DNA of 64,000 nt from Cellvibrio sp. OA-2007 (GTDB lineage Bacteria > Pseudomonadota > Gammaproteobacteria > Pseudomonadales > Cellvibrionaceae): the NCBI RefSeq assembly GCF_000953825.1, contig NZ_BBUL01000020.1, positions 62,001 through 126,000 on the forward strand, in the 5' to 3' direction. The position numbers and the translations under genes were made by a program. Shown one piece after another: positions 23,975 through 53,149 of the stretch. How positions within the stretch are numbered: position 1 is the first letter of the stretch; each line of letters opens with the position of its first letter. The notes beneath the pieces were generated by a model. That model was given only the letters and a program-made list of their open reading frames with translations. It made no database searches and was not told where the DNA came from.

Positions 23975-25825
23975 CTATGCTAGTGCCCTATCAATGGCGT
24001 CTTCGACGTCCTCAATTTCGCGAGCGGTGAGCGGTCGCATAACCAGAGCTTCATCTTGAAGCAAGGCTCCTAATCGATAGCCAATATATATCATTCTTTC
24101 CGGATGCTGTTTGCGCACGCCTGTTAATTTATCTCGCACACGTTGCTCTTCACTACTGCGAATAACTTCAACTCTTGCTGCATTACCTAAAGTATCAGGT
24201 GCATTCACACGGGTTTCAAATTCTTCAGAGACAATTTCATTTGCCTCCTGCTCGTTTTCCACTATTTCTGATTCCACCAACTCCCTTTTCACTTCAGTAT
24301 CCATAGCTTTATTCATATCTTCGATGCGAGTTCCAGCGCCTGCTGGGTCTAGTTGACCGCGATCGACCTTTTTTCCACGCTCATTTATTAAAAATTCGGC
24401 TATTGCGGGTGCATCCATATTCGCGTCTACATCAAAGTTGGACGCAAGGAAGCGAGTGTTTTGTTTTGGCGGTCCTTTATAGCCTTTCATGAGGGAGCCA
24501 CCGTAGAAAATTTCCCAGTTTTCATTGTCAATTCGTTGCTCCCAGTTCCGTTGGTTTCCTGGCGTGTTTGGTGATGCATCACCCTTATGGTTTTTTGCGA
24601 CTGCTTTTAGAGTGTTTCGCCACCATCGCCACAACCTGGTGATGGCTCTATCAACGGCGCCTTTGGTTTGCAACCATCGCTCCCGCCATAACTCGGTGCC
24701 TGTCTCTTTTAAGGATTCTCCCTCTTCCAGATATCCCCTATCTTCAATAATTTTTTTACCATGAGTAGCAAGAAGTAGCAGATCTCTTGCCAAATCATCC
24801 ATATCGCCCAAATAGTTTTGCTGGAGATTGTCTTGGGTTTCATTGCTTGTCACATTGCGCATTGCTGATTTGTAGGTCTTGGCATGACCCTTCGCTTCCG
24901 ATTGCAGATCAACCATCATTTGGCGCAACACAGCAGTGTCTACCTCCGGATCTGGGCCTCTATCCTCCAGTACCATAATCACATCGTGTAGCATATGCAT
25001 TGCAAGACGATATTCTTGATGCTGGGGCACATCATCCGGTCGCATCTGATCTTCTTGTAATTCCCTTATGCCGTTATTTTCTTCTCCTATCTGATCGGGA
25101 TCGATTTCTTCGTTAGCGGAAAATTTACCAAAGTCCTTGGTTCCAAAACGAAAGCCTTGTGCACCAATGCCGCCCTCGATTTCTTCACCTTCGTCATCGT
25201 CAACCAGCTGCGCAGTCGGGGAATTTATTGTTGAAGTTTTATTAGTTTGAATATCAATACTTTTTAACTGCAGTGCTTTTGCGCCCATCACATCCGCTTC
25301 ATGTTCCAGCCCCGCATCATCATTCACCGGCACACCGGCTTTCATTTGCATAGTGGGTTGTACACGCCCCTGCTTCTGCTGCACAACATGCCAGGCTTCG
25401 TGCGGTAGATGTTGTTCTTGACCGGGAGCGACGTGGATGTCAGTTCCCTGTGCATAAGCGTGGGCATTTAGTTGTGCGGGTTGAGCTGAGTTGTAATGGA
25501 CTTTTACATCATCCATGGAATAGCCGGATAAATTTTCGATACCGGATTTTAAATTGTCGGGCAGACCAGTGTTGTTGGGTTTTGCAGCAGCAGATTCTTG
25601 CAATTGTGTTGGAGTTTCGCTTTCAAATTTTCCTTGCAGTGGCTCATCCTCGGCGCTTATTTGTTGAATCACGTTCGGGGAGTGTGCTGCTTGCATTATC
25701 TGTTGCTGTTTGAGTTGCACTGCGGTTGAGGCGCGCTGATCAGACAACATAGAAATAGGTGATGTGAGAGCCTTTTTTTGCGTCGGATCTATATTTTTCC
25801 TGAGTTGCTTGCTTGTATAGGTCAT
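23975..25825 (-). CDS. eCIS payload: DUF4157 protein with nucleotidyltransferase-like region
   Basis: A 616-residue protein from ATG 25825, which has AAGGA eight bases upstream; a longer frame to 25849 has no such site. In order: leader SDQRASTAVQLKQQQIM (28-44), one EPLQGKF motif, then a DUF4157 domain (about 83-180) with HEAWH at 142-146, the HExxH of a putative metallopeptidase. The acidic, helical middle is unassigned. Near 440 it has IFYGGSLMKGYKG and, after a gap, NFDVDANMDAP (GGS 442-444, DVD 465-467), similar to the G[GS]...DxD core of nucleotidyltransferase folds though the spacing is long. DUF4157 is a known marker of eCIS cargo. The toxin activity is inferred, not certain. Confidence 0.75.
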   Translation of the reverse strand: MTYTSKQLRKNIDPTQKKALTSPISMLSDQRASTAVQLKQQQIMQAAHSPNVIQQISAEDEPLQGKFESETPTQLQESAAAKPNNTGLPDNLKSGIENLSGYSMDDVKVHYNSAQPAQLNAHAYAQGTDIHVAPGQEQHLPHEAWHVVQQKQGRVQPTMQMKAGVPVNDDAGLEHEADVMGAKALQLKSIDIQTNKTSTINSPTAQLVDDDEGEEIEGGIGAQGFRFGTKDFGKFSANEEIDPDQIGEENNGIRELQEDQMRPDDVPQHQEYRLAMHMLHDVIMVLEDRGPDPEVDTAVLRQMMVDLQSEAKGHAKTYKSAMRNVTSNETQDNLQQNYLGDMDDLARDLLLLATHGKKIIEDRGYLEEGESLKETGTELWRERWLQTKGAVDRAITRLWRWWRNTLKAVAKNHKGDASPNTPGNQRNWEQRIDNENWEIFYGGSLMKGYKGPPKQNTRFLASNFDVDANMDAPAIAEFLINERGKKVDRGQLDPAGAGTRIEDMNKAMDTEVKRELVESEIVENEQEANEIVSEEFETRVNAPDTLGNAARVEVIRSSEEQRVRDKLTGVRKQHPERMIYIGYRLGALLQDEALVMRPLTAREIEDVEDAIDRALA

Positions 25826-25876
25826 AACTTGGTCCTTAATTCTGTTCAACGTTTATAACCGGCCTGAAATATTACT

Positions 25877-27052
25877 TTATATATTTGCCAAATGATTAAT
25901 CACAATATCGTCCACTCCTGCTTTCTTGGTTACACCAACAGCACATTCTCTGGCAGCAGCCTCTAAAGTGCGAGTAACCGGTTTGCCCGCACCATTACCG
26001 GCTATAGTTTTGTCGTACTGTGTCGTAGTAATCGTTGGCCTGATTTCCTTATATCCTAGAACAGGTGTTGTTTCGACAAAATCATGCGCGTCATTATTAA
26101 CTGCTGCAATAACTTCAGCACTATCAGAAATAAAAGTTGTTTTTGGTTTTTCTTTGCTCGTTGCCCACGCCTCTTGATTTGCTAACGGCACCAAGTGTTT
26201 AGCAAGCTCTACAGTTGGCACCTTTGGCGTCGTTCTTACAGACATTAATTGATTTACATTTAAAGCAGGTAAATTCGTCTTCAATGCGACAAGACCACTC
26301 TCCACTGGCAAGCTACTCTGTTGGATCGCCTTAGCCCCCATCACATCCGCTTCATTTTCCAAACCCGCATCATCATTTACCGGCACACCCGCTTTCATTT
26401 GCATAGTCGGTTGTACACGCCCTTGTTTCTGCTGCACAACATGCCAGGCCTCGTGGGGTAGATGTTGCTCTTGACCAGGAGCGACATGGATATCAGTTCC
26501 TTGTGCGTAGGCATGGGCATTTAATTGTGCGGGCTTGGCAGAGTTGTAATGGACTTTTACATCGTCCATGGAATAGCCGGATAAATTTTCAATGCCGGAT
26601 TTCAAGTTATCCGGCATACCGGTGTTATTGGGTTTTTGTTCACGTTGCGCGGTTGCGTCGGAAGAAAATTTTCCTTGTAGTGGTTCTTCCTCTTCAGCGG
26701 CGCGTTGAAGAGGTTCAAACTTTCCCTGAATGGGTTCCTCTTCTTCCATTAATTGTGCGGTCGCAAATTTACCTTGCAGTGGCTCCTCTTCTTCGACTCG
26801 CTGCGCCACGAACTTACCTTGCAGCGGCTCTTCTTCCTCCATTAATTGTGCTGTCTCGAATTTCCCTTGTAATAACTCTTCATCTTCAGCGCGCTGCAGA
26901 GGTGCGCTTTGCGAGGAGGTCATCATCTGCTGCTGCTTGAGTTGTGCAGCGGTGGAGGCGCGTTGGTCGTTAAATAATTGTACGCTGGGTTTGGCAGCGG
27001 CTTCTTGCGCGGATCTGTCTTCGCTGGCAGCTTGGCGGGTAGTGAAGGCCAT
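25877..27052 (-). CDS. eCIS payload: DUF4157 protein with LQGKF repeats
   Basis: A 391-residue protein. The leader [17 protein letters not shown] (28-44) is followed by five acidic repeats of the EEEPLQGKF type (LQGKF at about 61, 77, 92, 108 and 125), then DUF4157 (about 140-240) with HEAWH at 200-204. The last ~100 residues (from [13 protein letters not shown]) match nothing I know and probably hold the effector activity. The DUF4157 part is nearly identical in protein and DNA to that of the next payload. GGGAGAACACC precedes ATG 27052. It is the first payload gene after the ion-channel-like gene. Confidence 0.75.
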
Positions 27053-27134: not shown

Positions 27135-29297
27135 CTAGTGGCGAAACGCCCAGACAGTGCACATAAACAGAGCGCCGGAAATGGCCGGCCAATAAAACAG
27201 TTTAGGCAATAAATTGTCATGGAACTGAATAAATGACAACTGCACCTTTAAGGATAATAAAACCGCATTTGCCGTGATTAATAGAATAATTACATAGGTT
27301 ATTAAATAGAAATATTCTAAATAGACCACTGAGTTGGCGGCTAACTCATTGCGCATCTGCACATGGGAGATAAGCGCAACAAAAAACAGTGCCGAGCAAG
27401 ATGCAACTACTCCAGCAGCGTTAAAGCCCAGAAAGTCTTTTTTCTCATCATCGGTAGACATGGTGACGACAATGGCAAAAAGCATCAATACCACCACAAA
27501 TAGTGGGAATAGGTGCGCAAGAAAGGGATTGATAAAGTTGCGCATAATTTCAATATTGAAATACAGCTCCGGCACGACCCCGCCAGGTGTTTTGCTGGCA
27601 ATACCGAGACGGGTGTTGTATTGGTTTTCACGCATCTCAAAATAGGAGCGAAACAAGGACCAACCGGATAAAACAAAATCTCTTTCTATGCCTGGCAATG
27701 AACGGGTATTCAGGCTGTTGTAAGATTTTAGATCTGGCACTAGCACTATGTTATCGCCAATTTTTTCATGCCAGAGCCTGATCCATACTGATTGCCGGTC
27801 TAGCGGAAAAAGATCGGGGGAAAAATTTTCGCGCAAAGTTGTTTCAAAATACCAGCCTTTTAAGGTCTCGCCATTTTTTTCCTGCTCATAAGCTAATTTG
27901 ATATTTGTTGTAATTGCTTCGGGAAAAACCGTACCAATCTCGTAGTTAGAATCTTGCCCTTCCTGGTAGCGGTGCCAAATATAACCGGTGATATTGACAT
28001 TGCTGGCGCTGAGAAACTCTATGGACTGAATAAATAATCCGACCGGCACATAAATAGGCGCATCGTCATATGCATTGAGTGAGCGCAATGCATTTTCGCG
28101 TTCAAATTTTTCGATAATTGCTTTATTAGCCAATACTACCGATTGACTTTTTGGTGGATTGATAGCGCCATATTCAAGAACCCAAATACTAATAACGCCG
28201 GAGAAAAAAATTACCGTATATATTCCGGTATCAATCCACAATTGCAATCTACTGGTTCTTTTACGCCGTAACCGCATACAGCTATAAAATAAAATTCCTA
28301 TGATAACTAATAGGGTAACCCAATCGACTCGATCATTTTTAGTGAGCTTATGCAAAATGCCAGTATCTCTATTGCCATTACTCGCAGTAGATTCTTCTAC
28401 CATTTCTGCGATAGTCGTTTTAGAAATTACACTAGTCAACTGCCATTGAGTTGCGGAAATAGTTACGCTGTGTTGCCATGCATCTTCCCCCGTTAACAGA
28501 TTAACTGTGTTATTCGCTGCGGTGTTAACTGAGGTAATTTGAGAAAGTTGTTGCGTGGTCTGAGCGATACCACTCAAGCTATGATACAACTCACTACCTT
28601 GCGCGGTGATAAGATTTAAATAGTTATTATCTTTGATGTCATATTTTTCGATTTGATCATGTAACCATTCAAAATTAATATCGACAAAAACCAAACCAAT
28701 TTTTTGTTGCTGTGCATTATAGACCGGTGCTGTATAACGAATAATATGCTGATCCAGTGCCGCTTCATAAAAAGGTGTCAGCCATTGGCGCTCATGAGTT
28801 TTAGCAATGTGGTACCAAGCTTCAGGGTTATGCAGTAAATCCTGCGGTTGTTTATTACTGACAAAGTAATCGTAATAGCTATCTAGCCGTTCAATTCTGG
28901 CGCCTTTGGAGTGCTGCCGAATAAAGGGGGCATAAAGGCGAAAATGAGTCGCGGATGCTTCTGCATCAAACGCTACACCCAGCGCGACAAATTCTGTGTG
29001 CTGTAAATAGGTAGCACGAAGATTCTCTTCAATATTACATGGGCTACAAACCGCTGTGCTTAGCAGCGCAGCGAGCTCATCGGCAACAACCGCAATCGCC
29101 TGAATTTTATTAGATAAATCCGCTGCCAAAAATTGTGTTTGTTGCTCAGCCCATAATTTTGATTGCTGTTGATTATGCTGATACTTATTAAAGACATAGA
29201 TAGCTTGAACAACAGCAAACAATATAAGCGCTGCGGTAATGAAGCTTAAGCCAAGTAACAATAGTCGCGGTTTATTATTTAACATTGGCAGCTTCAC
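27135..29297 (-). CDS. dCache sensor fused to a pentameric ligand-gated ion-channel-like domain
   Basis: A 720-residue membrane protein. TM1 is at about 9-33; a periplasmic double-Cache-like sensor (about 45-300, with RLDSYYDYFVS, WLTPFYEAALDQHIIRYTAPV and GLVFVDINFEWL) is followed by helices at about 326-343 and 355-374. A second extracytoplasmic region (385-585) ends in the LFPLDRQ element (496-502), close to the FPFDxQ hallmark of Cys-loop-type channels. Four C-terminal helices follow (589-614, 625-648, 657-683, 698-717), the number expected for such channels. Start 29297 overlaps the preceding gene by 23 bases; M5 (29285) is an alternative. The channel assignment is an inference from motif and topology. 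Confidence 0.7.
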   Translation of the reverse strand: MKLPMLNNKPRLLLLGLSFITAALILFAVVQAIYVFNKYQHNQQQSKLWAEQQTQFLAADLSNKIQAIAVVADELAALLSTAVCSPCNIEENLRATYLQHTEFVALGVAFDAEASATHFRLYAPFIRQHSKGARIERLDSYYDYFVSNKQPQDLLHNPEAWYHIAKTHERQWLTPFYEAALDQHIIRYTAPVYNAQQQKIGLVFVDINFEWLHDQIEKYDIKDNNYLNLITAQGSELYHSLSGIAQTTQQLSQITSVNTAANNTVNLLTGEDAWQHSVTISATQWQLTSVISKTTIAEMVEESTASNGNRDTGILHKLTKNDRVDWVTLLVIIGILFYSCMRLRRKRTSRLQLWIDTGIYTVIFFSGVISIWVLEYGAINPPKSQSVVLANKAIIEKFERENALRSLNAYDDAPIYVPVGLFIQSIEFLSASNVNITGYIWHRYQEGQDSNYEIGTVFPEAITTNIKLAYEQEKNGETLKGWYFETTLRENFSPDLFPLDRQSVWIRLWHEKIGDNIVLVPDLKSYNSLNTRSLPGIERDFVLSGWSLFRSYFEMRENQYNTRLGIASKTPGGVVPELYFNIEIMRNFINPFLAHLFPLFVVVLMLFAIVVTMSTDDEKKDFLGFNAAGVVASCSALFFVALISHVQMRNELAANSVVYLEYFYLITYVIILLITANAVLLSLKVQLSFIQFHDNLLPKLFYWPAISGALFMCTVWAFRH

Positions 29298-30480
29298 CTT
29301 GCTTTTGCATTACATTTTTATTATGTAATTGTGTCAACCACACTTTATCCATCATTTGATGATCGCCTGCATTACCGGGTAATTGACTCTCCAATTGCAC
29401 CAAGCTCGCGCGTAAAGTCTGACTATTTACTGCATTTTTAATATTGCGTATTGCCCCTAACAACAATTCTGTTTCTAAATAGCCTTCGTGATACACCTCA
29501 TTCGGTATTGATCCATAATCATAAACCCTCGCGCTTCCACCATTGGGGTTAGGCACCACTTGCGAGAGAGTGAGATTAAAATCACTCGTTGCCAATTTTT
29601 CTGTTAACGCGGTTGCACTGGTAAAAGACAAACTATAAAACCGGGTGGCAGGCGATAAGCGCTGTGCAAAACGAATAAATTCAGCGGTTGGCTCAACCGC
29701 GCCCACCAAAATAACAACTTTTGGTTTTACGCTTGCCCTAATAAATTCTTGCAGTGCCGCATTGGTTTTTAAGCTGTTGCGCTCGTAGCGCATTTGCAAC
29801 ACATTTTCCTGGCAGTCATTGCATACTTTGGCTAAGGCTTTTTGCAATGAGGCTAAACCAGCATTGCCAAAAGAATCATTTTGCAAAAATAAACCGATGG
29901 ATTTAATTGAGATACCTTGTTTAACAATATCCGCAACTATCGCATCCATTTCCTGATCATAACTAGGGCGATAATTAAAGACATAAGCAGCGGGAGGGCT
30001 CAGCCGTAATATGTTTGCGCCAGTGTACGCACCGTAAAATACCACTTGTTTTTCGTTGGCAATTTTCCAGGTTTTATCGGCCGTGGGAGTGCCGACATTA
30101 CCCACAATAGCGATCACCTTATACCTATCAATAAGCTCACGGGTATTTTGTGCTGCAGCTTCAGGATCGTAACTATCATCTAATACAATCAGTTCAAATT
30201 GAATACCTTGGCGGCGCCAAAACGCATCGCAATTCGCCTCTGCAATTCGCTGCTGCACTCCTTGTGACATTGACACACCCAGATATTGAATAGGGCCGCT
30301 CAATGCCGTACTCATACCTAATTTAATCGTTCTGCTGGCTGCTGGAAATTGTTCGCTACACGCAACGTCTGCACTGGTGTTAATCGCCCAGAGACTAGTA
30401 TTAAACATTATCGCCAACCACAAATAGCGCTCCGCATAACCCCGCATTATGTTCGGCATTTTTAGTTTAGTTGCTGTCAT
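29275..30480 (-). CDS. type I periplasmic binding protein (Leu/Ile/Val-binding-like)
   Basis: About 401 residues from ATG 30480; a longer frame to 30513 lies within the upstream gene. A signal peptide (ending near NTSADVA) is followed by the two-lobed fold of branched-chain amino-acid/amide-binding proteins: IKLGMSTALSGPIQYLGVSMSQGV, then VIAIVGNVGTPTADKTW and VVFYGAYTGANILRLSPP. No ABC permease or ATPase gene is near, so it is more likely a receptor than a transport subunit. It overlaps both neighbours by a few bases, which argues for tight coupling with the 1006-residue protein and the Cache/channel protein. Confidence 0.88.
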   Translation of the reverse strand: MTATKLKMPNIMRGYAERYLWLAIMFNTSLWAINTSADVACSEQFPAASRTIKLGMSTALSGPIQYLGVSMSQGVQQRIAEANCDAFWRRQGIQFELIVLDDSYDPEAAAQNTRELIDRYKVIAIVGNVGTPTADKTWKIANEKQVVFYGAYTGANILRLSPPAAYVFNYRPSYDQEMDAIVADIVKQGISIKSIGLFLQNDSFGNAGLASLQKALAKVCNDCQENVLQMRYERNSLKTNAALQEFIRASVKPKVVILVGAVEPTAEFIRFAQRLSPATRFYSLSFTSATALTEKLATSDFNLTLSQVVPNPNGGSARVYDYGSIPNEVYHEGYLETELLLGAIRNIKNAVNSQTLRASLVQLESQLPGNAGDHQMMDKVWLTQLHNKNVMQKQGEAANVK

Positions 30481-33400
30481 TATTTTTATCGCCATTAAAA
30501 TCGCTATCATCAATCAGTTGCTCGTTTTGGCTAACCTGTGTTTGCCGCTGGGGCAGAGCAGAAGATTTTTGATGCTGCAATAAATTGCGGTTCGGCTTAT
30601 CTTCCTTAAGCGCCTTTATCGCATTAATTCCAGCTCTAATCGCAAGCGCCACTAACACCACACCTAACACGCTGGATAAATTCATAATATTAAATAGCGG
30701 ATCTACCACAATTAAATAAACCCAAATAATAATTGGAGGTAAAAGCGCGCAGATCACAGTTAACGGATGCGAGACCCACTGAATATAGACGGGGAGTTTT
30801 TTGCAGCGATGAGGGTAGATGTAAAACACAACCAATATATAGATCAGGGCCAATATTAATCCGATATTCATTAGCGCAATAATCGACCAGCGGTAACCAC
30901 ACAGAGTTTCATTCCACAGCGACTCGGAATAACCGGGCGAAAAATGTGTGCCTATATAACTATTCACCGCTTTATAGTCTTTGCCGTCACTGGCGCCAGT
31001 GTATTCCAACATTGGCCAAAATCCGCCGCCGCCAAAACTTTCATGGATATATTCCAAGCGTTTTTGGCGTTCATCGATTTGCTCTGCACCATTGCTCAGT
31101 GATTTATTCTCCATTGCGGAATAATCGATAAACATTAACGGCGCGACTATATCGCGGTTAATACTATTAGTTATCGCATAGATTTCATCGAGTGCGGTGT
31201 AATAGGGGTCTTCCAGAATTAACACTACCATGCTGCCCACTATTTCCTGCACTTCCGGTATAGAAAGGTTTTCACTCGCGTAATTATTAATGCCAGTCAG
31301 CAAATCAATATGATTACTGCCAAATACAAAGTCCGATTCCAGAAATTCATTTTGCCTAACCATTATATTGATGTAGGTTTTATTTTTTATGCTATGAAAA
31401 CGGTCGCGGGTTTTATCTTGTGTGGCCAACTCTGCTTTTAATTCTTTATAGAAAACATCAAACCTGTCCTTCGCCATTTGCGAGCGAGGATAGTTTTTAA
31501 AATAAAAAGTTACACCATCGCCATTGCTAGGCTGTGCAGCTAAACCCAGGGTTAACCAAGGGCGCAAGCGTGCTTCGGCATCGGTAAGCGGCAGGGCTAA
31601 GAGTGCCTTTAATTGAATTTTCAAATTATCAAAGAATATCTTCAAATTCTTTTCATCAGATAATTCCGGCGATAGGGAAAATTCTTTTTCGATAATCCAA
31701 TCTACTTTGCTGCCATAACGGCGCGCCTCATGAATGAATGCCTTGGCATTGTCACTATTATCACTTAACAAATTGGGCGCGCCCGGTCGATTATTAATTT
31801 GATTAAGCTGGCCAGTGTCAGTCGCGGTTAGCCCAAAATAGGCCACCCGATTAAAAGTGCTGAAATCAAATACCTGCGCTTCATCGGTGGTTTTCCAATA
31901 AGGAAAAATACCATAGGCCATAGTCTGTATTTCTTTGGGAACACAACCGCAATTTTTATGGGAGCCATCCCAGAGAATAGGTTTACCGCTATAGGGCGGC
32001 ATAGGTTCACTGTAAAATTGTTCTAATATTGGCAATAACTCTTTATTAAAGTAGTTACCCAAATGCTGCACGTGATCTTCGTTGCAGTATTTGACCGGAC
32101 CCTGAGCACTGGCCTCAAAATAAACCTTTAGTTCATTAAACAGAATGGTTTTTTCGGCCGGCTCTAAATTGCCCAGTTGGGTATCCACTGTGTTGGATTT
32201 ATCCAACTTACAAATGCCCGATGCTTTAAATATTTTATTTTTAATTGCCAATTGCAATAGCTCAGCACTGGGATATTCAACATCTTTCAGTGTTTGCATT
32301 AATTTGATCACCACACTGGCAAGCGGTTTTTTACCGGTGCGCATTGAATTTGCCGCTGCCTCAGTGAGCATAAAATAGGATTTCTGACTGGCAATTTGGA
32401 TTTGAATCAAAAGTTTTTCGCTATTGGGCGCTATATCTTTTACTGCCACAGTGTCCGCTGCCACTGAACTGGCTGCAGCACTCGTGTTATTTTCGCCGGA
32501 GGTTGGATTTGCGCTTTGCGTTGGATAGGCCTTTTTAATTGCGGCACTAATAACCTTGGCAAACTCGGATTGATCGGCAAATGCTTTATCGCGCAGGGTC
32601 GATAGCTCGCCGAACAGCGCATCGCTAATACCCTGTTGCGCCAATGTATTTAACGCTTGTTCATCAATAAGATAAACAGTATGTTGGCTGACACCGGCGC
32701 TGATTTTCTCAGTAATTTTCTGACTTTCTTCGGCGGGCAATTTAGTTAGTAGCGAAGCTATTTTTGTGGTTGCCGATAATTTGTCGGGAAATTGTTGCCC
32801 TTTAATTGCATCCAACACGGCCTCTGCGGTACTTATTTTTGTTACCGCACCGGCCATAGCTTCAAAGTCATCTTCACGCAATACATAGAGTTGAAACGGC
32901 TCAATCGGTTGCGCTGGTGTTATGTCAGGCTCAGCAACTGCTGGCGGCTGTAGATAACAACGCACCAGTGCTTGCAGTTGTTTATCGCTGCCTTGCGCCA
33001 ATGTTTGTTTGACATCCAACTCACATGCAGTGAAATGGGTCGCCGCCCAAACCGCAAAGGGTTTACTAATCAGCGTATCTACATAGGTGCGATACTGTTG
33101 CGAAAAACTTGCGATAGCAGTTGCCCGTGTTGGCAAATGTGCTACTGCATCACCTGTACTATCCAGTGCAAAGCTATGACAAAAGCGCTGCATCCACGAC
33201 CAGGTAATTGGCCCTAAAATACCATCGTTTAACGGCTTACCAGTGCGGCTTGCATCTTTTTTCCAATCTGGTTCCAGATGGTATAGCTGGTACATATCAG
33301 CCTGTACTTGGGCAATGATCGGCTTGGGATATTTTTTATATTCCAACTCATATCCGAGGCATTTATCTTTATTAAGTATTGCACCTGCAGGTGCTGCTTG

Positions 33401-33487
33401 CGCCGCCGGCATTATTAAATTCAATGCGATTGCGCAGAATAGAGCCAGCAGCAATAGCGATGATTTTTTGGTTAAGGCAATAATCAT
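30467..33487 (-). CDS. secreted/membrane protein with peptidoglycan-binding-like and TIM-barrel-like regions
   Basis: A 1006-residue protein with signal peptide (cleavage near AAQAAPAG, residue 32). At about 55-105 it has a peptidoglycan-binding-like segment (NDGILGPITWSWMQRFC). A long Ala/Gln-rich helical stretch follows, then a region from about 520 to 855 resembling GH18-type barrels (MAYGIFPYWKTTD, FNRVAYFGLTATD, GGGGFWPMLEYTGASD). I could not find the DxxDxDxE catalytic motif of chitinases. Three membrane helices lie near the C-terminus (about 865-960). It begins five bases after the eCIS ATPase stop, so it belongs to the eCIS operon. It may bind or remodel cell wall or anchor the particle; this is inference. 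Confidence 0.6.
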   Translation of the reverse strand: MIIALTKKSSLLLLALFCAIALNLIMPAAQAAPAGAILNKDKCLGYELEYKKYPKPIIAQVQADMYQLYHLEPDWKKDASRTGKPLNDGILGPITWSWMQRFCHSFALDSTGDAVAHLPTRATAIASFSQQYRTYVDTLISKPFAVWAATHFTACELDVKQTLAQGSDKQLQALVRCYLQPPAVAEPDITPAQPIEPFQLYVLREDDFEAMAGAVTKISTAEAVLDAIKGQQFPDKLSATTKIASLLTKLPAEESQKITEKISAGVSQHTVYLIDEQALNTLAQQGISDALFGELSTLRDKAFADQSEFAKVISAAIKKAYPTQSANPTSGENNTSAAASSVAADTVAVKDIAPNSEKLLIQIQIASQKSYFMLTEAAANSMRTGKKPLASVVIKLMQTLKDVEYPSAELLQLAIKNKIFKASGICKLDKSNTVDTQLGNLEPAEKTILFNELKVYFEASAQGPVKYCNEDHVQHLGNYFNKELLPILEQFYSEPMPPYSGKPILWDGSHKNCGCVPKEIQTMAYGIFPYWKTTDEAQVFDFSTFNRVAYFGLTATDTGQLNQINNRPGAPNLLSDNSDNAKAFIHEARRYGSKVDWIIEKEFSLSPELSDEKNLKIFFDNLKIQLKALLALPLTDAEARLRPWLTLGLAAQPSNGDGVTFYFKNYPRSQMAKDRFDVFYKELKAELATQDKTRDRFHSIKNKTYINIMVRQNEFLESDFVFGSNHIDLLTGINNYASENLSIPEVQEIVGSMVVLILEDPYYTALDEIYAITNSINRDIVAPLMFIDYSAMENKSLSNGAEQIDERQKRLEYIHESFGGGGFWPMLEYTGASDGKDYKAVNSYIGTHFSPGYSESLWNETLCGYRWSIIALMNIGLILALIYILVVFYIYPHRCKKLPVYIQWVSHPLTVICALLPPIIIWVYLIVVDPLFNIMNLSSVLGVVLVALAIRAGINAIKALKEDKPNRNLLQHQKSSALPQRQTQVSQNEQLIDDSDFNGDKNNDSN

Positions 33488-33492: not shown

Positions 33493-34848
33493 TTAGAGCG
33501 TACGCCCCTCCTTGAGAAGTTCTTTATTGATGCCTTGTACTAAATCAGCTTGTTCAAGGGTATTGCGCTGCATACGTGTTGCACGAATTGCCGCATAGCG
33601 CACCACATTAGTTAAGGAGCCGCCAGAGAGCTCATATTTTTCTGCCAGTGCTGCCAGATCTACATCGCTGGATAACAAGGATGTATCGGGCAAAAGATTT
33701 TTCCACAGACGCAAGCGCTCGGTTTCATCGGGCAGCGGAAAATAAATGATCGATTGAAAGCGGCGTGCAAAAGCTTCATCGATATTCGCTTTGATATTAC
33801 TGGCCAGAATGACCACGCCGGGAAAGTCTTCTACCCGTTGGAGTAAATAGGAAATTTCCTGATTGGCATGGCGATCATTGGAGCTGCTGGTTTGGGTGCG
33901 TTTGCCAAACAAGGCATCGGCCTCATCGAAAAATAGAATCCAATTTTTATTTTCGGCTTGATCAAATACACCGGCGAGATTTTTTTCTGTTTCACCTATG
34001 TATTTGGAAACCACCATAGATAAATCAATGCGGTAAACATCCACACCCACACTGGCACCCAATAAGGTAGCAGTGAGAGTTTTACCTGTTCCCGGTGGCC
34101 CAAAAAATAAACTGCGATAACCTGCTTTAATGGATTTTTCCAAACCCCAGCGATTGACTAACTCTTTACCTTGACGCAACCAGGTATGCAGATGATCAAT
34201 TTCATCTATTACATCCGCTGATAAAACCAAATCATCCCACGTAAGTTTGCTGGTGATTAATTTTGCCGGGAACTCGATGCTGTAATCCGGTTTATGTACA
34301 TGACCATGGGTGCAGCGATGTAAAAATTCGGCGGTGACTGAAATAGTTGCATTTAAAAAAGGCTCACCACTGGCTTGATGCTCTAGTTTAATCAACCGCT
34401 GTTTTAAAAAATAATGCTGCTCGTCAAATAACTGCAACGCATCAAAACGGCGATTTAACTCCTGCCCGGCCAAAATAAACACGGCAGTTTCTGCGGTAGG
34501 TAAAAAGCCGCTGTGCGCTTTGCCACGCCAGCCACCAAATTCGGTATAGGTGCGACCGGTCACCTGGCTCTGGGTAAAAAAGATATCCAACGCCTGTGGC
34601 CGCAAATGCGGGATCAAACATAAAATAAATATCAACCGCTCATCAAAGCCCATTTTGTAATCGCGCACGATCTGCGCATAGGGGGATTTATCATCACTCA
34701 GATCTGGCGGATTCAAACTGCGCACATCGGCAGTCGCCTGTTGTGTTTCAGGCGAACCAAAATAATGGGTAAAGCGCAAATTCAACACAGCATCGAACCA
34801 GGCAAGTTCCTGTTCAAGTGTTTTGGCATTGGCTTGGCTAATCTGCAT
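33493..34848 (-). CDS. eCIS AAA+ ATPase (Afp15/Pvc15-like)
   Basis: A 451-residue protein with Walker A GPPGTGKT at 250-257, Walker B ILFFDEAD at 304-311 and the second-region Arg near FARRFQS. The N-terminal ~200 residues are the family-specific domain seen in injection-system ATPases (VLNLRFTHYF, RLIFILCLIPHLRPQALD). In Afp and PVC the homologue is cytoplasmic and is needed for particle assembly or payload loading. It follows the tape-measure gene by 23 bases in the expected order. Confidence 0.92.
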   Translation of the reverse strand: MQISQANAKTLEQELAWFDAVLNLRFTHYFGSPETQQATADVRSLNPPDLSDDKSPYAQIVRDYKMGFDERLIFILCLIPHLRPQALDIFFTQSQVTGRTYTEFGGWRGKAHSGFLPTAETAVFILAGQELNRRFDALQLFDEQHYFLKQRLIKLEHQASGEPFLNATISVTAEFLHRCTHGHVHKPDYSIEFPAKLITSKLTWDDLVLSADVIDEIDHLHTWLRQGKELVNRWGLEKSIKAGYRSLFFGPPGTGKTLTATLLGASVGVDVYRIDLSMVVSKYIGETEKNLAGVFDQAENKNWILFFDEADALFGKRTQTSSSNDRHANQEISYLLQRVEDFPGVVILASNIKANIDEAFARRFQSIIYFPLPDETERLRLWKNLLPDTSLLSSDVDLAALAEKYELSGGSLTNVVRYAAIRATRMQRNTLEQADLVQGINKELLKEGRTL

Positions 34849-34871: not shown

Positions 34872-37800
34872 TCAGGAGTGATTGCGCCAGGAAACGCGCA
34901 GCGGTTTATCCATCCATCCATGTTTAATCAGGCTGATACTCCAGGGTAATCGGTCGAGCAGTAAATCAAAGGTCTGCTCTTTTACTTTCAGCCGCCAACA
35001 ATCTTCTTCCAAAACCAACCAACCCTGTCGCTGGAAAAAGGTTTCGCGCAATCCGGCGATAGACGTCGAGCCCAATACTTTCCAATGCTGGATCATACTG
35101 GTAAGCATTTGTTCAATTAGCGTCTGCTCCTGCTCGGTAATTTCAATGCCCGCACTAACTGGAATGCTGGTGCTTATACCGCACAAAATTTTATTGAGGA
35201 TTAAATCGTATTCCGGTGTGCAGGCTTCACCGGTCACCATAAATTGCACTAAATGCACCGCGCGATCCGCTGCACCTGGGTGAATAAATTTTCCATCCTG
35301 AATTAGATTCAACATAGAAAATAAACGCGGTAAAAAAGCGCCCGCTAATACCTGACCGGCATTATTAATATGCAGGCCGGATTCCCATTGCGGCGTACTC
35401 TCATCGCTTTGGGTTGCGGGATTGGTATTGATTTCTTGCAAGCGCATCGCCGGCTTTTGTTGTGCCACAGGTTTTAATAACGCAATACGACGTTGTGTCA
35501 AATTCACTAGCCGCTGCAGATCATTAATCCCTGCAGCAGTCGCCAGATGTTCACATAAGTCAATGGATAGGGTCTGCGCCAATTCACTACTCGCCGTTAC
35601 TATCTGATTGTCATTAACTGTTAATAGATAGCGAATAATAAATTCCCATCTGGCCTGTTTAATTGCCGGGTTATTCAGATCATTGACCAACAGCGCCATG
35701 GCTTCTAGTACCACTTTCACCACGGCATCCAGCGCGGCATAGCGCGCAGGTTGTAAGCGCAGCATTATTTGATGCAGCAAATGTGAAGGCACTAACTGAA
35801 TTAACAGTTGCGCATTATTTGCCAGAGTTAACAATTCACTCCATTCAGCAACCAGGGTTGGATTGGGATGATTGAGCAGCAAATTAACATGCTGTTGTAG
35901 CATCAATAATTGTTCTTGCGTTAAAGGCTGGTTAGCCGCGAACAATTGCGCCAGAGAGAGTGCAGGTTTGCGCACAGAAGTATCAGCTCCTGTTGATAGC
36001 GAATAATCTATCGCTTGTTCTAGGTAAAGGCTTTTTGAGCCAGGAGATTCCGAGTTGAAATACTCAGGATGATCAGCATGAGTGGCAATTGTTACTTCTT
36101 GCGTTAGATTATTAACGCTACTGTTTGCACTGGTGTATTGCTGATCCGCATTTGTTGCTGAGAACGCTTCAAGGTCAATCGGCTGCTGTTGCAAGACTGC
36201 TTGAATAATCTGGCGATAATAGATAATTGGATTAAGCGCAGAACGCGCCTGAGATTTAATAGCCGCGATCAACTCTGTGTTGCTAGCAACATCAGTTATA
36301 TCAGCGACATCAGTTACATTAGCAACCGCATTATGCTTAATCAGCTCACAGGCCAATTCTTGCCATTGTGTTGCGTCTAGTTGCAATTGCTGTAAATGCG
36401 ACAGCGGCCATGTATCGATAGTTAATGTTTTTACTATAGATGCAATAGGATCTGTTGCCGCTGTCGTATAAGTTGAAGCAATGCCGTTTTGATCTTGTGA
36501 ATGAACACTAGAGTTTTGCGGAATTTTTTCAACTACCTGAGCCTGTTGTGGCAAGTCACGTCCACCCGTTTGTGTAATTGCATTTACCGGATTTTCTGTT
36601 GATTCGTTCCCAAAGGCTTCAAGATCTATAGACTGGTGTTGCAAAATCGCTTGAATAATCCGACGATAACAGAGTGTTGGATTTAATAGCCATCGTGTTT
36701 GTATTTCAATCGCCGCAATCAAGTCCGCATGTGCATCAGTCACTGAGCTGCGCTTAAGCAATTCAAACGTTAATTCCTGCCACTGTATGGTATTGAGTTG
36801 TAACTGTTGCAAGCGCGATAGAGGCTGCGTATCTCTCAGCAGTTCTTGTGTAATCGCTTCAATATCATGTTTAACTACCGATGTAACAGCTTCCGGAATT
36901 TCAGCATTAACCTGTGGGCTGTTGTTATTGCGTTGCACAGTTTGTGCAATCAACTCTAGATCTATTAGTTTATCGGCTATCAGTGTTTTTAATACGGTTA
37001 GGTAAAAAGTAGCGGGGGCATAGCTGGATTCTGCTTGCGCATCTATAGCCGCAACAAATTCAGCGCAGTTTTCGGCGGTGGCACTGTGGCCAAGGCGAAT
37101 ATAACTGCTAATCAAACGCTGCAATAAAACCACATCAGCAGCCAGTGACGACCAAGCCAGCGCGCCACTTTTTAAACGCAGGCACAAATCAAATAACTGA
37201 TGATCGCTAACACTGACCAAACTATTGGCAGTGAAACGAGTAGTATCGGAATTTAAACGAACAGAGTCTGCAATGAGACCAGAAGCATCTGCAGTAAAAT
37301 GATATGTATCGGCAGCAAAATCAGAAGTATCAGGCGCAACACTTGCACTCGCTAATGTCGCGTTCGATACAGGGTAACTTGATTGTTGTTCTTGATTTTT
37401 TAGTAGTAGTTGGTTTTTTTGTAGTTCTTCATTTTTCTGTAGTATTTGTTGGTTTTGTTGCAACTCTGCTGTGGGATTAATGCCATCTGGTCCAGCGTTA
37501 ATGCTTTCGGTCTTTTCACTAGATATATCATCACTACTGCTCGCTTCGTCCTGTTGCTGGCCAAATACCAGCGTCTGCAATAATTGTTGCAGACGCTGCT
37601 CGTCCAAATTATGCAGTTCAGCATAACGCTGCGCCACCGCATTTATAAATACTTTACTCTGGCCCTGATAATGCGAATTGATTGAAGAGCCGTTAAATAA
37701 GAGACCCAGCGTTATTTCCCATAGTTGCCGAGCAACTAATTCAGCGGATTGCTGGACAACTTTATTTTCGTTTTGGCTATTGTCTTCACTGCGGGCAGTT

Positions 37801-39275
37801 AAAGATGTGAATGATTTTAACTGTGCAACAATGTGATAATTTAATTGTGTAGCGCATTGTTGTAAGCGATAAAAAATATCGGTTAAGGCTGGCGCCAACA
37901 AAGCAATGATCCCCGCCTGCAAATCAACGGGTAGGCGCAACATTAATTGTTGCCGAATTTCGGGTTGCGGTAGGTAATGCTGTAATGCTGTTATGAATAA
38001 TTGATCATTCGCCAGTAACTGTGGCCAGAGTTGCTGTAATTGACTGACATCCGCGCGAATCAGTGCAGCTGCAACTAATTGCTGTAATTGCCCAGTAGAT
38101 TGTTGTTCATGGTCAATGGGTAATTCACCGCTGGCTGATGGCTGCGCAGTCTTATTTAATGCAGATTGGCTAGCACTTGCTGGATACACAGGATTATCTA
38201 TCTGATTTGCAGCAAAATTTTGGGCATCGCCTGAAAAACTCGTGTCAGCTACTGAGTTTGCAATAACTGCTTGTAGATCCTCCAGCGCCTTGGCGGCAGC
38301 ACCAGAGGGACGTTTAATGGCGACTAAATCTTGTCGTAATTGATTTTCGCTGAATGCAAATTTGCTCGCCAGTTTATGCAGAATCTGATTAATCCAAAAT
38401 TGTGTTGTTGCCTGCGGCTGTGCTAACGCCAACTCCAATAAGGCTTCCCATACCGTCTGTTGTACTGCGTCGGAACCCAGCGAGTCATAATTAATAAGTT
38501 GATCACCAGCCATTAAACGCTCAGTTGTTGAGCCTTTAATTTCTGTAGGCTCAATCGTTGAACCAGCAATTATCGATTGGTCTTTTGCGTGGGATGAATA
38601 AATTCGGTAGTTGCTCCCTAATAATTGCAATAGATCAAACAGGGCGATGGCATTTTGCACTTGTTGCGGTGCAAGTTGACGCAATAATTCCATGCGCTGC
38701 AGAAGCGTAAATTGGGTTAACAAACGCTGAATCAACAGATCGCGCTGCGGCAGCTCACGCAGTAAGTCGGCAATATTATGTTGCGCAATTACCGCATCCA
38801 ACAATTGCGCATGAAGCCCAGGCGATTGAGTCTGTTTATTTTTGCTAGCCGAAGTCTGCTGTTGCACAACAGGGCGATGCGCCGACAATTGTCCGGTAGC
38901 TAAATAGCTAAATAATTGCTTCAGGGCCAGCTCGGCATTTGGCGTGTCGCGCTGTGCAGTTGATATTTGCAGATGCGTATTTTCTGGCGCTACGGCTAAT
39001 AATTGCGACGCTAATAACTGCGCAAACTGTTTTAATAATTGCTCGCGAATTGCTTGTTGATAATGGCGGCTAGTCAGACTACCGCAATCAAACTCCAGGG
39101 TTTCAAAGCGTAAAATTTGCGTTCCCGGCGAGTAGTGCGAAAACACTCTGTCCAACGCGGGTAACAAATCCTCAGTTAACCATTCATTGAGCTGCGCAGT
39201 TTCATGACGAGCGAGTCTGGTCGTGTTGAACGACAGATCGACAATCAACTCATCAATGCGATGCTCGGTTTGCAT
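34872..39275 (-). CDS. eCIS tape-measure protein (Afp14-like)
   Basis: A 1467-residue protein. The N-terminal (HRIDELIVDLSFNTTRLARH, residues 4-23) and C-terminal (AGAFLPRLFSMLNL...HLVQFMVTGE, then WSISLIKHGWMDKPLRVSW) blocks are characteristic of contractile-injection-system tape-measure proteins. Between them is a very long helical, Gln/Ala-rich region with internal duplications: an RLQQLQLNTIQWQEL...QAILQHQSIDLEAF unit recurs about 150 residues later as HLQQLQLDATQWQEL...QAVLQQQPIDLEAF. It also has short runs such as LLQKNEELQKNQLLLKNQ. Tape-measure length sets the length of the tube. It starts three bases after the Afp12-like gene. Confidence 0.88.
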   Translation of the reverse strand: MQTEHRIDELIVDLSFNTTRLARHETAQLNEWLTEDLLPALDRVFSHYSPGTQILRFETLEFDCGSLTSRHYQQAIREQLLKQFAQLLASQLLAVAPENTHLQISTAQRDTPNAELALKQLFSYLATGQLSAHRPVVQQQTSASKNKQTQSPGLHAQLLDAVIAQHNIADLLRELPQRDLLIQRLLTQFTLLQRMELLRQLAPQQVQNAIALFDLLQLLGSNYRIYSSHAKDQSIIAGSTIEPTEIKGSTTERLMAGDQLINYDSLGSDAVQQTVWEALLELALAQPQATTQFWINQILHKLASKFAFSENQLRQDLVAIKRPSGAAAKALEDLQAVIANSVADTSFSGDAQNFAANQIDNPVYPASASQSALNKTAQPSASGELPIDHEQQSTGQLQQLVAAALIRADVSQLQQLWPQLLANDQLFITALQHYLPQPEIRQQLMLRLPVDLQAGIIALLAPALTDIFYRLQQCATQLNYHIVAQLKSFTSLTARSEDNSQNENKVVQQSAELVARQLWEITLGLLFNGSSINSHYQGQSKVFINAVAQRYAELHNLDEQRLQQLLQTLVFGQQQDEASSSDDISSEKTESINAGPDGINPTAELQQNQQILQKNEELQKNQLLLKNQEQQSSYPVSNATLASASVAPDTSDFAADTYHFTADASGLIADSVRLNSDTTRFTANSLVSVSDHQLFDLCLRLKSGALAWSSLAADVVLLQRLISSYIRLGHSATAENCAEFVAAIDAQAESSYAPATFYLTVLKTLIADKLIDLELIAQTVQRNNNSPQVNAEIPEAVTSVVKHDIEAITQELLRDTQPLSRLQQLQLNTIQWQELTFELLKRSSVTDAHADLIAAIEIQTRWLLNPTLCYRRIIQAILQHQSIDLEAFGNESTENPVNAITQTGGRDLPQQAQVVEKIPQNSSVHSQDQNGIASTYTTAATDPIASIVKTLTIDTWPLSHLQQLQLDATQWQELACELIKHNAVANVTDVADITDVASNTELIAAIKSQARSALNPIIYYRQIIQAVLQQQPIDLEAFSATNADQQYTSANSSVNNLTQEVTIATHADHPEYFNSESPGSKSLYLEQAIDYSLSTGADTSVRKPALSLAQLFAANQPLTQEQLLMLQQHVNLLLNHPNPTLVAEWSELLTLANNAQLLIQLVPSHLLHQIMLRLQPARYAALDAVVKVVLEAMALLVNDLNNPAIKQARWEFIIRYLLTVNDNQIVTASSELAQTLSIDLCEHLATAAGINDLQRLVNLTQRRIALLKPVAQQKPAMRLQEINTNPATQSDESTPQWESGLHINNAGQVLAGAFLPRLFSMLNLIQDGKFIHPGAADRAVHLVQFMVTGEACTPEYDLILNKILCGISTSIPVSAGIEITEQEQTLIEQMLTSMIQHWKVLGSTSIAGLRETFFQRQGWLVLEEDCWRLKVKEQTFDLLLDRLPWSISLIKHGWMDKPLRVSWRNHS

Positions 39276-39278: not shown

Positions 39279-41822
39279 TTAGATCCAATAGGCCGCAGAG
39301 GGCGTGTGTTGCTCAAGCCAAGCGCGCACACGCTGCGCCGCTCGGTCAAGCGTTTTTGTAATCGTGCCATTCACTTCAGCTGCCAAATGTTGTTGCTCGT
39401 ACTGATGCAACGCGTCTAACCAGGGTTGATAGCTGCGTTCGAATGCTTCCATCTCTCGTAAACTCAGCCAATAGACTTGAGGAAATAAATGCGCGGGCAA
39501 ATGATTGGCAATGGTTTTTTCGGCAAATTGGCGAAACGCGGGATTGGCAAACCTTGCGGTCCATTTGGGGAAAATAAAACTTAAGCGGCAGTGATAGAAA
39601 TCATCGCTCAGCGACGTTTGGCTTTCATCTTTAGCGTCTGTTGTGTTTGCCTCTGTGCGCGGCCGCAACAAAATATGTTCGAGCAAATAGAATCCTTCTG
39701 AACCGGCATTTATATCGGTGATGATTTTTTTGAATTTATGCACATAGGCTATGGCCTGCTCCCGCTCCATCGATTTTTTTAGCGCTGTCCAGCGGTCTTG
39801 AGCCTGGGAATAAAAATACACATCAACTAGGTCACCTTGGCTCTGCGGGCGCAGACGATAGGCATCAATACTGGTACCTTCACAAATCATCGCCGGGCTA
39901 AGCGTGAGCGCTTTACTTGGAGTGTAATTCCACTGCAACAATTTTTGCTGCTGTTTTGTTTTGAGTTTGGGTACGGGTTGCTGCGCAGCACTTTCACTGT
40001 CGCCCGCATTCAAACGCTGGCCCATGGTTTTATCATCCACCAAATTGATTTGATTGGCGGCAAAACACTGCGACAAAGGAGTGATGCTATCCAGTTGTTG
40101 AATACCGAGCAGAATATTGATTTTTTTATGCAGGCTACTCAGGTTACTGGATTGCCAATGTGCTTCGCTGGTATTAAACGCACCCGAGCGGCTATTGCTG
40201 ATTTCAACCAAGTGCAATAGATAACGAATTTTATTATCTATTGCCCAATAATCCGGCTGTTCTTCATGATAATAATTAAAATGCAGCAGCGCTTCTTGTG
40301 AAAATTCTTCGCCATAGAGTGCGAGCAGTGTATCCAGCGCGCGACTTTTGCGATCCCATGCCTGATCATGCTTCGCCTGCACAGCTTGAATTGCCGCCAA
40401 ATCAATCCGATCATTTGCGTACAGCTCGACAAAATTGGGGATATGGTGATTATCTAAATATTGCGCAAAATAGCTGTGATTCGGTTGTTCATTTAAACTA
40501 AACAACTGCTGCAAATTCTGGATATGGGCAAGCATATTGGCCAGCAGCTGTTCACAGGGATAGAGATAGGATTTAAGTTGCTGCGCCTGTATTTTGCGTT
40601 CAGCCAATTCACTGTGGGGCACACCCGCCGCATTAATGCCGTAAACATTAGGGAAATGGTGTTGCACAGAATAATAGGCAATTTCGCTATGCGCTCGCCC
40701 TTGCGGTAGCGGATAGAAATTTGTTGCATTGGTTTTATTGGTGCGAAATGCACGGTATTCAAATTCCAATTTTTGCAACGCGCGCCGCGCCTCTTCCATA
40801 AGCACTTCAATGGTTTCGCCACGGGCTTTTACAACACCGGCCGGATCGGTTGTTTTACCTGGATTAAAATCGATTTTTAGCCACTGCTGTTGTTCGAGAT
40901 CTTCCGGAAATTTAAGAAAAAATGATTGCTGGTCAATCGCCTGAGTATCTAGGGCTTTACCGGTGCTATCGACCAGCTCTAAACGATAGACTTTTTTCAC
41001 GCCCTCGATTTTTGCCACCAAACCATTAAGTTCTTCTAATGATTTGGTACTGTTGTGCGCATTGAGTTCATCGCTGTAGATATAGCCGTGGCGAGTTAGC
41101 GGACCGGTGAAAATATCCGCCAGATCCATTTCCTGTTGCACTAGCGTTTCATAGCGCTCGATGCGAATGTTGGAGGAGATTTTGCGAGCGACCTGAAAAA
41201 ATACATCGGCATAAATGGCCGCCGTATTGCGTTTACCCGTTGTCTCAATCACACCTTTTAAAAAACAGGCTTCACTCTGTTCGATGTTGACACTGGCGAG
41301 ATCTTCCCCCAGATTGCGATTTTGCAGAAAAACACGCTGTACTTTTTGCACTATGTGTTTTTTTTGTGCGTCGCTATAGGCAGGGCCGGTCAGTGGCTCT
41401 AATAATTTAATCGCGATTTGATAAAGACACGCGCCATAACTAACCTGCGCATCCAACGTGGTAATAGTAACTGCATCTATCTCGGGCACTTCATCCAATA
41501 AACGCTTGCAATAATCTTCTGCAGTAACTGGCCGAGTGGGGAAAATATCCTGCGGTTTATACAAAGCGTATTGATTAAAATCGATCAGGCCGCGCTCATT
41601 GGCAAGATAATCTGCTACCGGTACATTGGCTTGATAGGCCAACTCCGTTAACCCAAAGCACAACTGCTCCAAAATAGTCACACCCGGATCATGCAGGTTG
41701 TAATCCGTCCAGATATTGCCGGCAAGTTCTTGCGCGCGGGCAATACCCTCGCTGCGCAAACTGGCAAAGTCTAGCCCATCTGGATCTTGTTGCAGACGCG
41801 CGATGACTTCCGACGAACTCAT
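39279..41822 (-). CDS. eCIS baseplate protein (Afp12-like)
   Basis: An 847-residue protein. The N-terminus (LASLRSEG-type start, GNIWTDYNLHDPGVTILEQL, then FGLTELAYQANVPVADYL) is the conserved opening of Afp12/gp7-like baseplate wedge proteins. It probably forms the outer baseplate wedge with the J protein and supports the fibres. The start codon overlaps the stop of the upstream 115-residue gene (ATGA). No enzymatic motif is present. Confidence 0.85.
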   Translation of the reverse strand: MSSSEVIARLQQDPDGLDFASLRSEGIARAQELAGNIWTDYNLHDPGVTILEQLCFGLTELAYQANVPVADYLANERGLIDFNQYALYKPQDIFPTRPVTAEDYCKRLLDEVPEIDAVTITTLDAQVSYGACLYQIAIKLLEPLTGPAYSDAQKKHIVQKVQRVFLQNRNLGEDLASVNIEQSEACFLKGVIETTGKRNTAAIYADVFFQVARKISSNIRIERYETLVQQEMDLADIFTGPLTRHGYIYSDELNAHNSTKSLEELNGLVAKIEGVKKVYRLELVDSTGKALDTQAIDQQSFFLKFPEDLEQQQWLKIDFNPGKTTDPAGVVKARGETIEVLMEEARRALQKLEFEYRAFRTNKTNATNFYPLPQGRAHSEIAYYSVQHHFPNVYGINAAGVPHSELAERKIQAQQLKSYLYPCEQLLANMLAHIQNLQQLFSLNEQPNHSYFAQYLDNHHIPNFVELYANDRIDLAAIQAVQAKHDQAWDRKSRALDTLLALYGEEFSQEALLHFNYYHEEQPDYWAIDNKIRYLLHLVEISNSRSGAFNTSEAHWQSSNLSSLHKKINILLGIQQLDSITPLSQCFAANQINLVDDKTMGQRLNAGDSESAAQQPVPKLKTKQQQKLLQWNYTPSKALTLSPAMICEGTSIDAYRLRPQSQGDLVDVYFYSQAQDRWTALKKSMEREQAIAYVHKFKKIITDINAGSEGFYLLEHILLRPRTEANTTDAKDESQTSLSDDFYHCRLSFIFPKWTARFANPAFRQFAEKTIANHLPAHLFPQVYWLSLREMEAFERSYQPWLDALHQYEQQHLAAEVNGTITKTLDRAAQRVRAWLEQHTPSAAYWI

Positions 41823-42166: not shown

Positions 42167-42222
42167 TTTTTTTGCTCATCTCATTGATTGCGTTAATTGG
42201 TTAAAAACACGATCAAGACCAT

Positions 42223-43005: not shown

Positions 43006-43031
43006 CGTGCTTGCCTATTCGTGCTTGCCTG

Positions 43032-46856: not shown

Positions 46857-46904
46857 TGGCGAACTCGCAGGTGGCGCTCACTCGCGCGCATGGGTAATAG
46901 CAAG

Positions 46905-47312: not shown

Positions 47313-47339
47313 AGCCAACATCTGTGTGTGTTAATCGAA

Positions 47340-47630: not shown

Positions 47631-47688
47631 GGTTTAATTTCCTTTTTGGGCAATAACGATTTTGCTAGCCTTTAATGCAAATAAAAAA

Positions 47689-49479: not shown

Positions 49480-49482
49480 GTA

Positions 49483-50160: not shown

Positions 50161-50162
50161 GA

Positions 50163-50330: not shown

Positions 50331-50364
50331 GATGGATTAATCGCCGCTGTATCGTTGACAGGTG

Positions 50365-50847: not shown

Positions 50848-50863
50848 TTAGCTATGTGCACCC

Positions 50864-53132: not shown

Positions 53133-53149
53133 ATTCGTTCCTTTAAGTG

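Follow-up and report, generated by a model that had tools for sequence, protein, structure and literature searches.

A membrane protein gene and an optional binding protein and channel cassette in an extracellular contractile injection system locus of Cellvibrio

Gene organization of the locus

This study concerns a 64,000-nucleotide stretch of the genome of Cellvibrio sp. OA-2007 (contig NZ_BBUL01000020.1, positions 62,001 to 126,000, here called the window) and, within it, three minus-strand open reading frames (ORFs) situated between the AAA ATPase gene of an extracellular contractile injection system (eCIS) and two genes with the eCIS_core (DUF4157) domain. From the ATPase onwards, they encode an eCIS-associated membrane protein of 1006 aa (MEM, 30467..33487), a LivJ-like type-I periplasmic binding protein (PBP, 29275..30459, in an ORF of 412 aa at 29275-30513) and a protein in which a Cache sensor is fused to a predicted pentameric ligand-gated ion channel, or pLGIC (CHAN, 27135..29285, 716 aa, in an ORF of 720 aa at 27135-29297). 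Upstream on the same strand lie the AAA ATPase (33493..34848; PF00004, 4e-29), the tape measure protein (34872..39275; PF19268, 2e-89) and the remaining eCIS genes (39279..54550), which Pfam assigns to baseplate J, gp25, spike, tubes, sheath and Pvc16_N, together with four ORFs without a Pfam match. Downstream, also on the minus strand, the two genes with the DUF4157 domain are payload candidates, that is, cargo beside the cluster (25877..27052, PF13699, 3.6e-9; 23975..25849, PF13699, 1.2e-9). Genomes and loci used for comparison are referred to by G and L numbers.

The original prediction, made from the sequence, had described the three genes as an envelope module between the ATPase and the payloads. 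The ORFs and Pfam bear out the trio and its place, the first gene does begin 5 bases past the ATPase stop, and all three genes stand in line with those of the eCIS and have products that belong to the envelope. The description of PBP as a binding protein without an ABC transporter agrees with the searches: it matches Peripla_BP_6 (E=8.7e-36; closest solved structure 4kv7, E=6e-52), it is the single match in its own genome, and no transporter match was obtained among the 28 window proteins scanned, the remaining window ORFs lying outside that scan. The claim that the genes overlap or nearly abut each other needs one correction. The 46-base overlap of MEM and PBP is a product of choosing a TTG start for PBP; an in-frame ATG is found 7 bases past the MEM stop in the window and 1 base past it in L035, a second Cellvibrio locus with the same genes, and the likely PBP start is the ATG at 30459 or 30447. 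In contrast, the overlap of PBP and CHAN is kept in both loci and looks real, as the likely CHAN start, ATG in the window or GTG in L035 followed by TTAAATAATAAA, is placed inside the last PBP codons in both copies.

Distribution of MEM and of the PBP and CHAN genes

MEM accompanies eCIS. In a draw of 96 relatives, which included the window's own genome, it was present in 9 of the 21 Cellvibrio genomes and in none outside the genus; these nine are exactly the Cellvibrio genomes with the tape measure PF19268, and the other 12 have neither. MEM directly follows the AAA ATPase gene in all nine Cellvibrio loci (the contig of L008 begins within the ATPase), and the order tape measure, ATPase, MEM is usual across the eCIS loci with MEM. 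A MEM profile made of 15 diverse members, some of them taken from the class genomes counted, gave seven matches in 274 genomes of the class. Six were strong, all among the 8 genomes with a tape measure, and none of the 266 genomes without one had a strong match; the seventh (G166, E=4e-6, about 100 positions) is weak and comes from a genome without a tape measure. The search of plasmids found no MEM match. As judged by strong matches, MEM is confined to eCIS genomes in these samples.

PBP and CHAN showed a different distribution. The pair occurs in two of the nine Cellvibrio eCIS loci, the window and L035, and in the other seven a DUF4157 gene comes after MEM. Among the 21 Cellvibrio genomes, CHAN was found in only these two carriers; the one further match is a stretch of 37 residues in G008. 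That stretch (L095, about 9089-9199) is 62% identical to the channel end, lies outside any channel-matching ORF and is perhaps a remnant. The channels of the window and L035 stand at the same site and are 73% identical, and the MEM proteins are 52% identical. The MEM tree separates the two carriers and therefore implies two changes, either two gains of the pair or a single gain with additional losses. A similar leader, compared by eye, is located upstream of the payload gene whether or not a locus has the pair. No PBP relative was detected by BLAST in the other pLGIC-bearing eCIS loci. The nearest non-Cellvibrio channel in the tree (L070) is divergent to a PBP gene and is not in an eCIS locus.

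PBP and CHAN are an optional cassette, and because MEM is constant in the Cellvibrio eCIS loci while the cassette is optional, the three genes are two things and not one. The trio as a single conserved module, as originally proposed, is ruled out by the two of nine Cellvibrio loci that hold the pair, and the channel family is also found away from eCIS. The related expectation, that the trio would co-occur with eCIS, held for MEM, which tracks eCIS, and for the trio itself in both Cellvibrio carriers, but within Cellvibrio the pair is limited to these two loci.

Features of the MEM protein

Hydropathy, and not a signal-peptide predictor, points to a signal-peptide-like start in MEM and to about three hydrophobic or transmembrane (TM) segments at its C-terminus. 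In Pfam searches of the 15 family members, PG_binding_1 (PF01471) was matched by three at E<=0.5, with a best value of 1.9e-6, and Glyco_hydro_18 (GH18) by one (9e-5); the window protein matched neither. Pfam run on the window proteins alone detected no pLGIC, peptidoglycan-binding or GH18 region. GH18 enzymes also head the Foldseek list obtained with a poor model of MEM, at E 0.08 or worse among the best 50 of 568 rows, which is taken as a hint. The catalytic motif of GH18 is DGxDxDxE, ending in the catalytic glutamate. The window protein reads DGVTFYFK at this place, with K instead of E; this E is absent from all 15 family members, five of which have D in its position (L153, L072, L074, L075 and L076). 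We therefore describe MEM as having a peptidoglycan-binding-like and a chitinase-like (GH18) region; it lacks the GH18 catalytic glutamate and probably does not cut the cell wall.

This missing residue bears on the proposal that the locus encodes a ligand-gated lysis device, in which the channel would collapse the membrane potential like a triggered holin and MEM, through its wall-binding domains, would help particles out by opening the envelope. Escape by lysis agrees with PMC10598620, where eCIS particles are described as leaving through lysis of the producer (here and below, statements on cited articles refer to the parts of them that were covered), and a channel and a probable wall-binding membrane protein do stand in one gene row. 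Yet the glutamate is absent from the whole MEM family, which probably leaves no wall cutting, and seven of the nine Cellvibrio loci have no channel. Moreover, pLGICs pass small ions and not proteins. We regard a lysis device as unlikely.

The only clear relative of MEM in the PDB is 9r9a, an 864 aa "Uncharacterized protein" that is a full-length homologue (chain B, E=8e-21 with the window protein and 4e-113 with the family profile). It is a close relative of the MEM of L153 (E=1e-182), which belongs to an eCIS locus but, unlike the window, one without a pLGIC in its stretch. The best PDB matches of the window tube protein are 9r9h and 9r9n, and the nearness of these numbers to 9r9a suggests that one structural project may hold both proteins. 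The same numbering might be taken to place MEM in the particle as a structural component, in place of a membrane dock; the signal-peptide-like start and the about three TM helices speak against this, and we consider it very improbable.

Relationship of CHAN to pentameric ligand-gated ion channels

By Pfam, CHAN contains only a Cache-type sensor (MCP-like_PDC_1, 1.6e-7, or dCache_1). The pLGIC models PF02931 and PF02932 gave no match in the window protein and two weak ones among ten related proteins (14.5 and 15.5 bits, below the curated cut-off), scores that would place CHAN in a distant branch of pLGICs. A profile built from the C-terminal regions of ten CHAN relatives matched GLIC (E=2e-5), the match spanning positions 141-337 of the 378 in the profile. 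The CHAN profile had 70 PDB matches at E<=10, and the best 60 are named proton-gated ion channel, Glr4197 or chimeras, and once ligand-gated ion channel; we take the proton-gated ion channel and Glr4197 entries to be GLIC. When the profile was compared with two pLGICs of canonical appearance encoded in eCIS loci, the probability was 93% over 188 columns, and one of these two matches on its own GLIC-GLRA1 (3e-6) and GABA-A chains. Because the window protein alone gave no pLGIC match at E<=1, its assignment rests on the family.

The C-terminal part (27135..28271, minus strand) is predicted to hold a ligand-binding beta domain with the Pro-loop and the helices M1-M4. The Pro-loop motif of pLGICs is (F/Y)PxD, and CHAN has FPLDRQ in the family column aligned with YPFDSQ of GLIC. 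In hydropathy plots M1-M3 of the window protein are above the threshold and M4 is under the cut; four helices were seen in the relatives L072a and L072b. Taken as a member of its family, CHAN is predicted to be a GLIC-like pLGIC, which agrees with the channel part of the original description, and the family profile rules out a mere Cache sensor. The window's own genome also has a second, canonical pLGIC gene away from eCIS (L148, contig C7, 5838-6845).

Cache-linked channels are known from other bacteria. Tasneem et al. (PMC549065) described bacterial pLGICs with a Cache fusion, or with a PBP or Cache gene as neighbour, and proposed a chemosensory role. The likeness to these proteins, and to DeCLIC, lies in the fusion of a Cache domain with the pLGIC core, or in a neighbouring PBP or Cache gene. 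The difference lies in the setting, since the part of that article covered does not mention injection systems, whereas the genes described here stand in an eCIS locus and, elsewhere, up to three paralogues are found together.

Occurrence of pLGIC genes in eCIS loci

A search for CHAN in the 274 class genomes, made without regard to eCIS, gave matches in 14 genomes at E<=0.001, 8 of them strong (E<1e-40); the six weaker ones, five on the Cache part only and one on the channel part, were left uncounted. The tape measure was found in 8 genomes, and 6 have both it and a strong channel. When the window's genome is set aside, a strong channel occurs in 7 of 273 genomes, a tape measure in 7 and both in 5 (Fisher p=3.6e-8; this and the other association p-values given here are too small because related genomes are treated as independent, and the MEM and channel profiles include some of the sequences counted). 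These five genomes belong to four genera of three families, and in all five the channel is inside the eCIS locus, downstream of MEM, sometimes with a TPR or DUF4157 gene between. The other strong genomes are G223, with a channel without surrounding eCIS, and G240, with a channel at the edge of a contig, and G299 has a second copy outside eCIS (L070). Counted by place, 6 of the 9 strong class channel matches besides that of the window are in eCIS loci.

A further search took MEM as its starting point in two orders, with 11 genomes in one and 20 in the other, and found it in 4 and 7 of them, 7 of these 11 being new. All six new loci readable past MEM carry pLGICs, and the contig of the seventh ends inside MEM. 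In total, 17 non-Cellvibrio MEM loci were collected, 16 of them readable past MEM, and 12 of the 16 have one to three pLGIC genes (L071, L072, L074, L075, L076, L154, L186 and L188-L192). Among eCIS loci without MEM, a pLGIC was found in none of 14 in the stretch read, some of these loci, such as L158, being short or in fragments; the weak tape-measure place G047:C53 is outside this count. The two groups differ (p=2e-5), and the difference is also seen with the tape-measure-found genomes only, Cellvibrio included (8 of 19 with MEM and 0 of 12 without, p=0.0096). The channel is tied to eCIS in one branch, the one with MEM, and many loci of this branch have their pLGIC genes only a few genes downstream of MEM.

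Four loci (L186, L188, L189 and L072) have three different pLGIC genes, Cache-fused, short and canonical, a set that could possibly form a mixed pentamer or a set of receptors. A tree was built from 23 pLGIC sequences, and the ones that lie in eCIS loci, or adjacent to an eCIS payload gene, were distributed over four lineages: the window and L035, the short forms, the Cache forms and the canonical forms. The eCIS label changes 5 times on this tree and 4-5 times in bootstraps, and the starred branches alone force 2 changes; the deep order is unsure owing to long branches. Viral contigs yielded no channel relative. Plasmids had the channel in four records, two of which, examined by BLAST with the window proteins, were without eCIS genes.

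Other features were observed in these loci. A protein of about 480 aa is encoded between MEM and the Cache-fused pLGIC in L072 (3603-5024), L074 (8743-10209), L188 (7367-8836) and L189 (2203-3654); the L072 copy has TPR matches and hydrophobic stretches and may be a further envelope partner in that genus. In L075 (5891-6994 and 7075-9159) and L192, stops or frame changes interrupt or truncate pLGIC, channel or MEM genes, which may reflect decay or an assembly error. In the window, a CHASE-PAS-GGDEF-EAL protein (54824-57418) adjoins the start of the eCIS cluster, a possible link to cyclic-di-GMP. A subtilase and a second AAA ATPase gene are located beyond eCIS (58127-61497), and after both DUF4157 genes there is a weak match to DNA/RNA non-specific endonuclease (23201-23959, E=0.001, under the curated cut-off).

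The neighbourhood of pLGIC and DUF4157 genes raises the question of whether the channel, or MEM, shields the producer from its own DUF4157 payload. The two genes often adjoin (L071, L072, L074, L188, L189 and L190), and do so off eCIS in L142. Nevertheless, payload homologues vary in length and are only partly alignable between the Cellvibrio loci, and DUF4157 genes occur in many loci without any pLGIC, and self-protection is to our mind highly unlikely. In L142 (8787-11016) a short pLGIC gene converges on the DUF4157 payload gene, and payload and channel may travel together.

A possible envelope layer for eCIS

The genes are encoded together, and from this we infer how their products might act. 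The reading that we prefer, tentatively and a little short of evenly balanced, is that of an eCIS branch with a dedicated envelope layer, in which MEM anchors, and PBP and the Cache-fused pLGIC sense and control docking, firing or release. It draws on the restriction of MEM to eCIS genomes, the gene order, the pLGIC assignment of the channel and its association with eCIS in the class, the pLGICs of the six loci reached through MEM, the four lineages and the PBP and CHAN overlap kept in both copies. MEM would sit in the inner membrane, grip the peptidoglycan with its periplasmic domains and so give the cytoplasmic particles a place at the envelope. PBP would bind a small solute and act together with the Cache domain to gate the pentameric channel. 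Ion flux, or the movement of the channel, would then signal the cell to dock, fire or release particles. The suggestion in the original prediction that the envelope proteins could control particle release or anchoring would be part of such a scheme.

The proposed device would work like the membrane checkpoint CisA of Streptomyces, with an ion channel as the sensor instead. In Streptomyces coelicolor, contraction of the CIS in cells requires CisA, whose extracytoplasmic part is similar to solute-binding domains; like the proteins described here, CisA is a membrane protein of the CIS gene cluster, and it was modelled as a pentamer and proposed to be a sensor and checkpoint for firing (PMC12237407). 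CisA is bitopic, with one TM segment, and no ion channel is described in the part of that article covered. In addition, the binding protein of the window is a separate gene and its pentamer would be a pLGIC. The likeness is of setting only. Compared with eCIS that have DUF4157 cargo (AFP, PVC, MACs and AlgoCIS), the core genes and the cargo domain are alike, and the difference would be in the MEM and pLGIC genes placed here between the ATPase and the cargo.

Several observations weigh against the envelope layer. Seven of the nine Cellvibrio loci have MEM without the cassette, and L041, L151, L153 and L155 have MEM with no pLGIC in the stretch read. L153 also departs from the usual gene order, with MEM after the tape measure and the ATPase on the other strand. 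The AlphaFold model of MEM, made with 6 close sequences, is poor (mean pLDDT, the predicted local distance difference test, of 48). Channel relatives were found without nearby eCIS in L070, L073, L144, L146, L147, L165 and L166. Finally, the link is weaker in the phylum sample than in the class. Among its 398 genomes, 26 match the channel profile at E<=0.001, of which 7, the window's own included, are strong and the 19 weaker ones were left uncounted; the tape measure had 10 matches, 9 of them over the cut-off (G408 was dropped). Two of the six other strong channel genomes have a tape measure (p=0.005), neither at the same locus, and none of the six channels is in an eCIS locus: that of G466 is on a different contig from eCIS, that of G455 is 187 kb from eCIS, beside a DUF4157 gene (L142), and those of G473 and G523 are on short contigs. 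As for the layout of L153 (9398-19806), its DUF4157 gene is also on the ATPase strand, opposite MEM, and it appears to be a different layout of the same branch.

Part of these data would fit a passenger, that is, a free-standing chemosensor cassette of PBP and the Cache-fused pLGIC that relies on the operon to be expressed and is functionally unconnected with the particle. Such a cassette agrees with the sister pair outside eCIS in L070, with the two carriers among nine Cellvibrio loci, with the six phylum channels away from eCIS loci and with the pairing of known bacterial pLGICs with PBP or Cache genes elsewhere (PMC549065). What it does not lead one to expect is that four pLGIC lineages are represented in eCIS loci, across several families and with as many as three genes in one locus, and that no pLGIC was seen in the stretch read of the 14 eCIS loci without MEM. 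We give the passenger a low probability.

The envelope layer can be extended to the MEM-type branch, which would then be under the control of channels resembling neurotransmitter receptors. Many of its loci have one to three different pLGIC subunits (Cache-fused, short and canonical); these might assemble into a heteropentamer that reads several solutes, and the opening of the channel would decide when the producer docks particles, fires them or sacrifices itself for their release. We consider this extension possible, although rather doubtful. In the open-licence literature covered (titles and starts of abstracts, supplements not included) no link between pLGICs and eCIS was found, and a term search within the covered parts of PMC8213781, PMC12210884, PMC11297309, PMC12923769, PMC10598620 and PMC4795631 returned no link of ion channels to eCIS.

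The arrangement hints that the use of such injection machines may be timed by the sensing of chemicals at the cell envelope. To our knowledge, how eCIS producers decide on the deployment of particles is an open question outside Streptomyces, and we know of no established natural role for the bacterial pLGICs (GLIC, ELIC, DeCLIC). That pLGIC genes recur in the loci of one eCIS branch joins these two questions, and removal of the genes could test both. If the proposal is true, bacterial pLGICs would have a physiological task in the control of eCIS.

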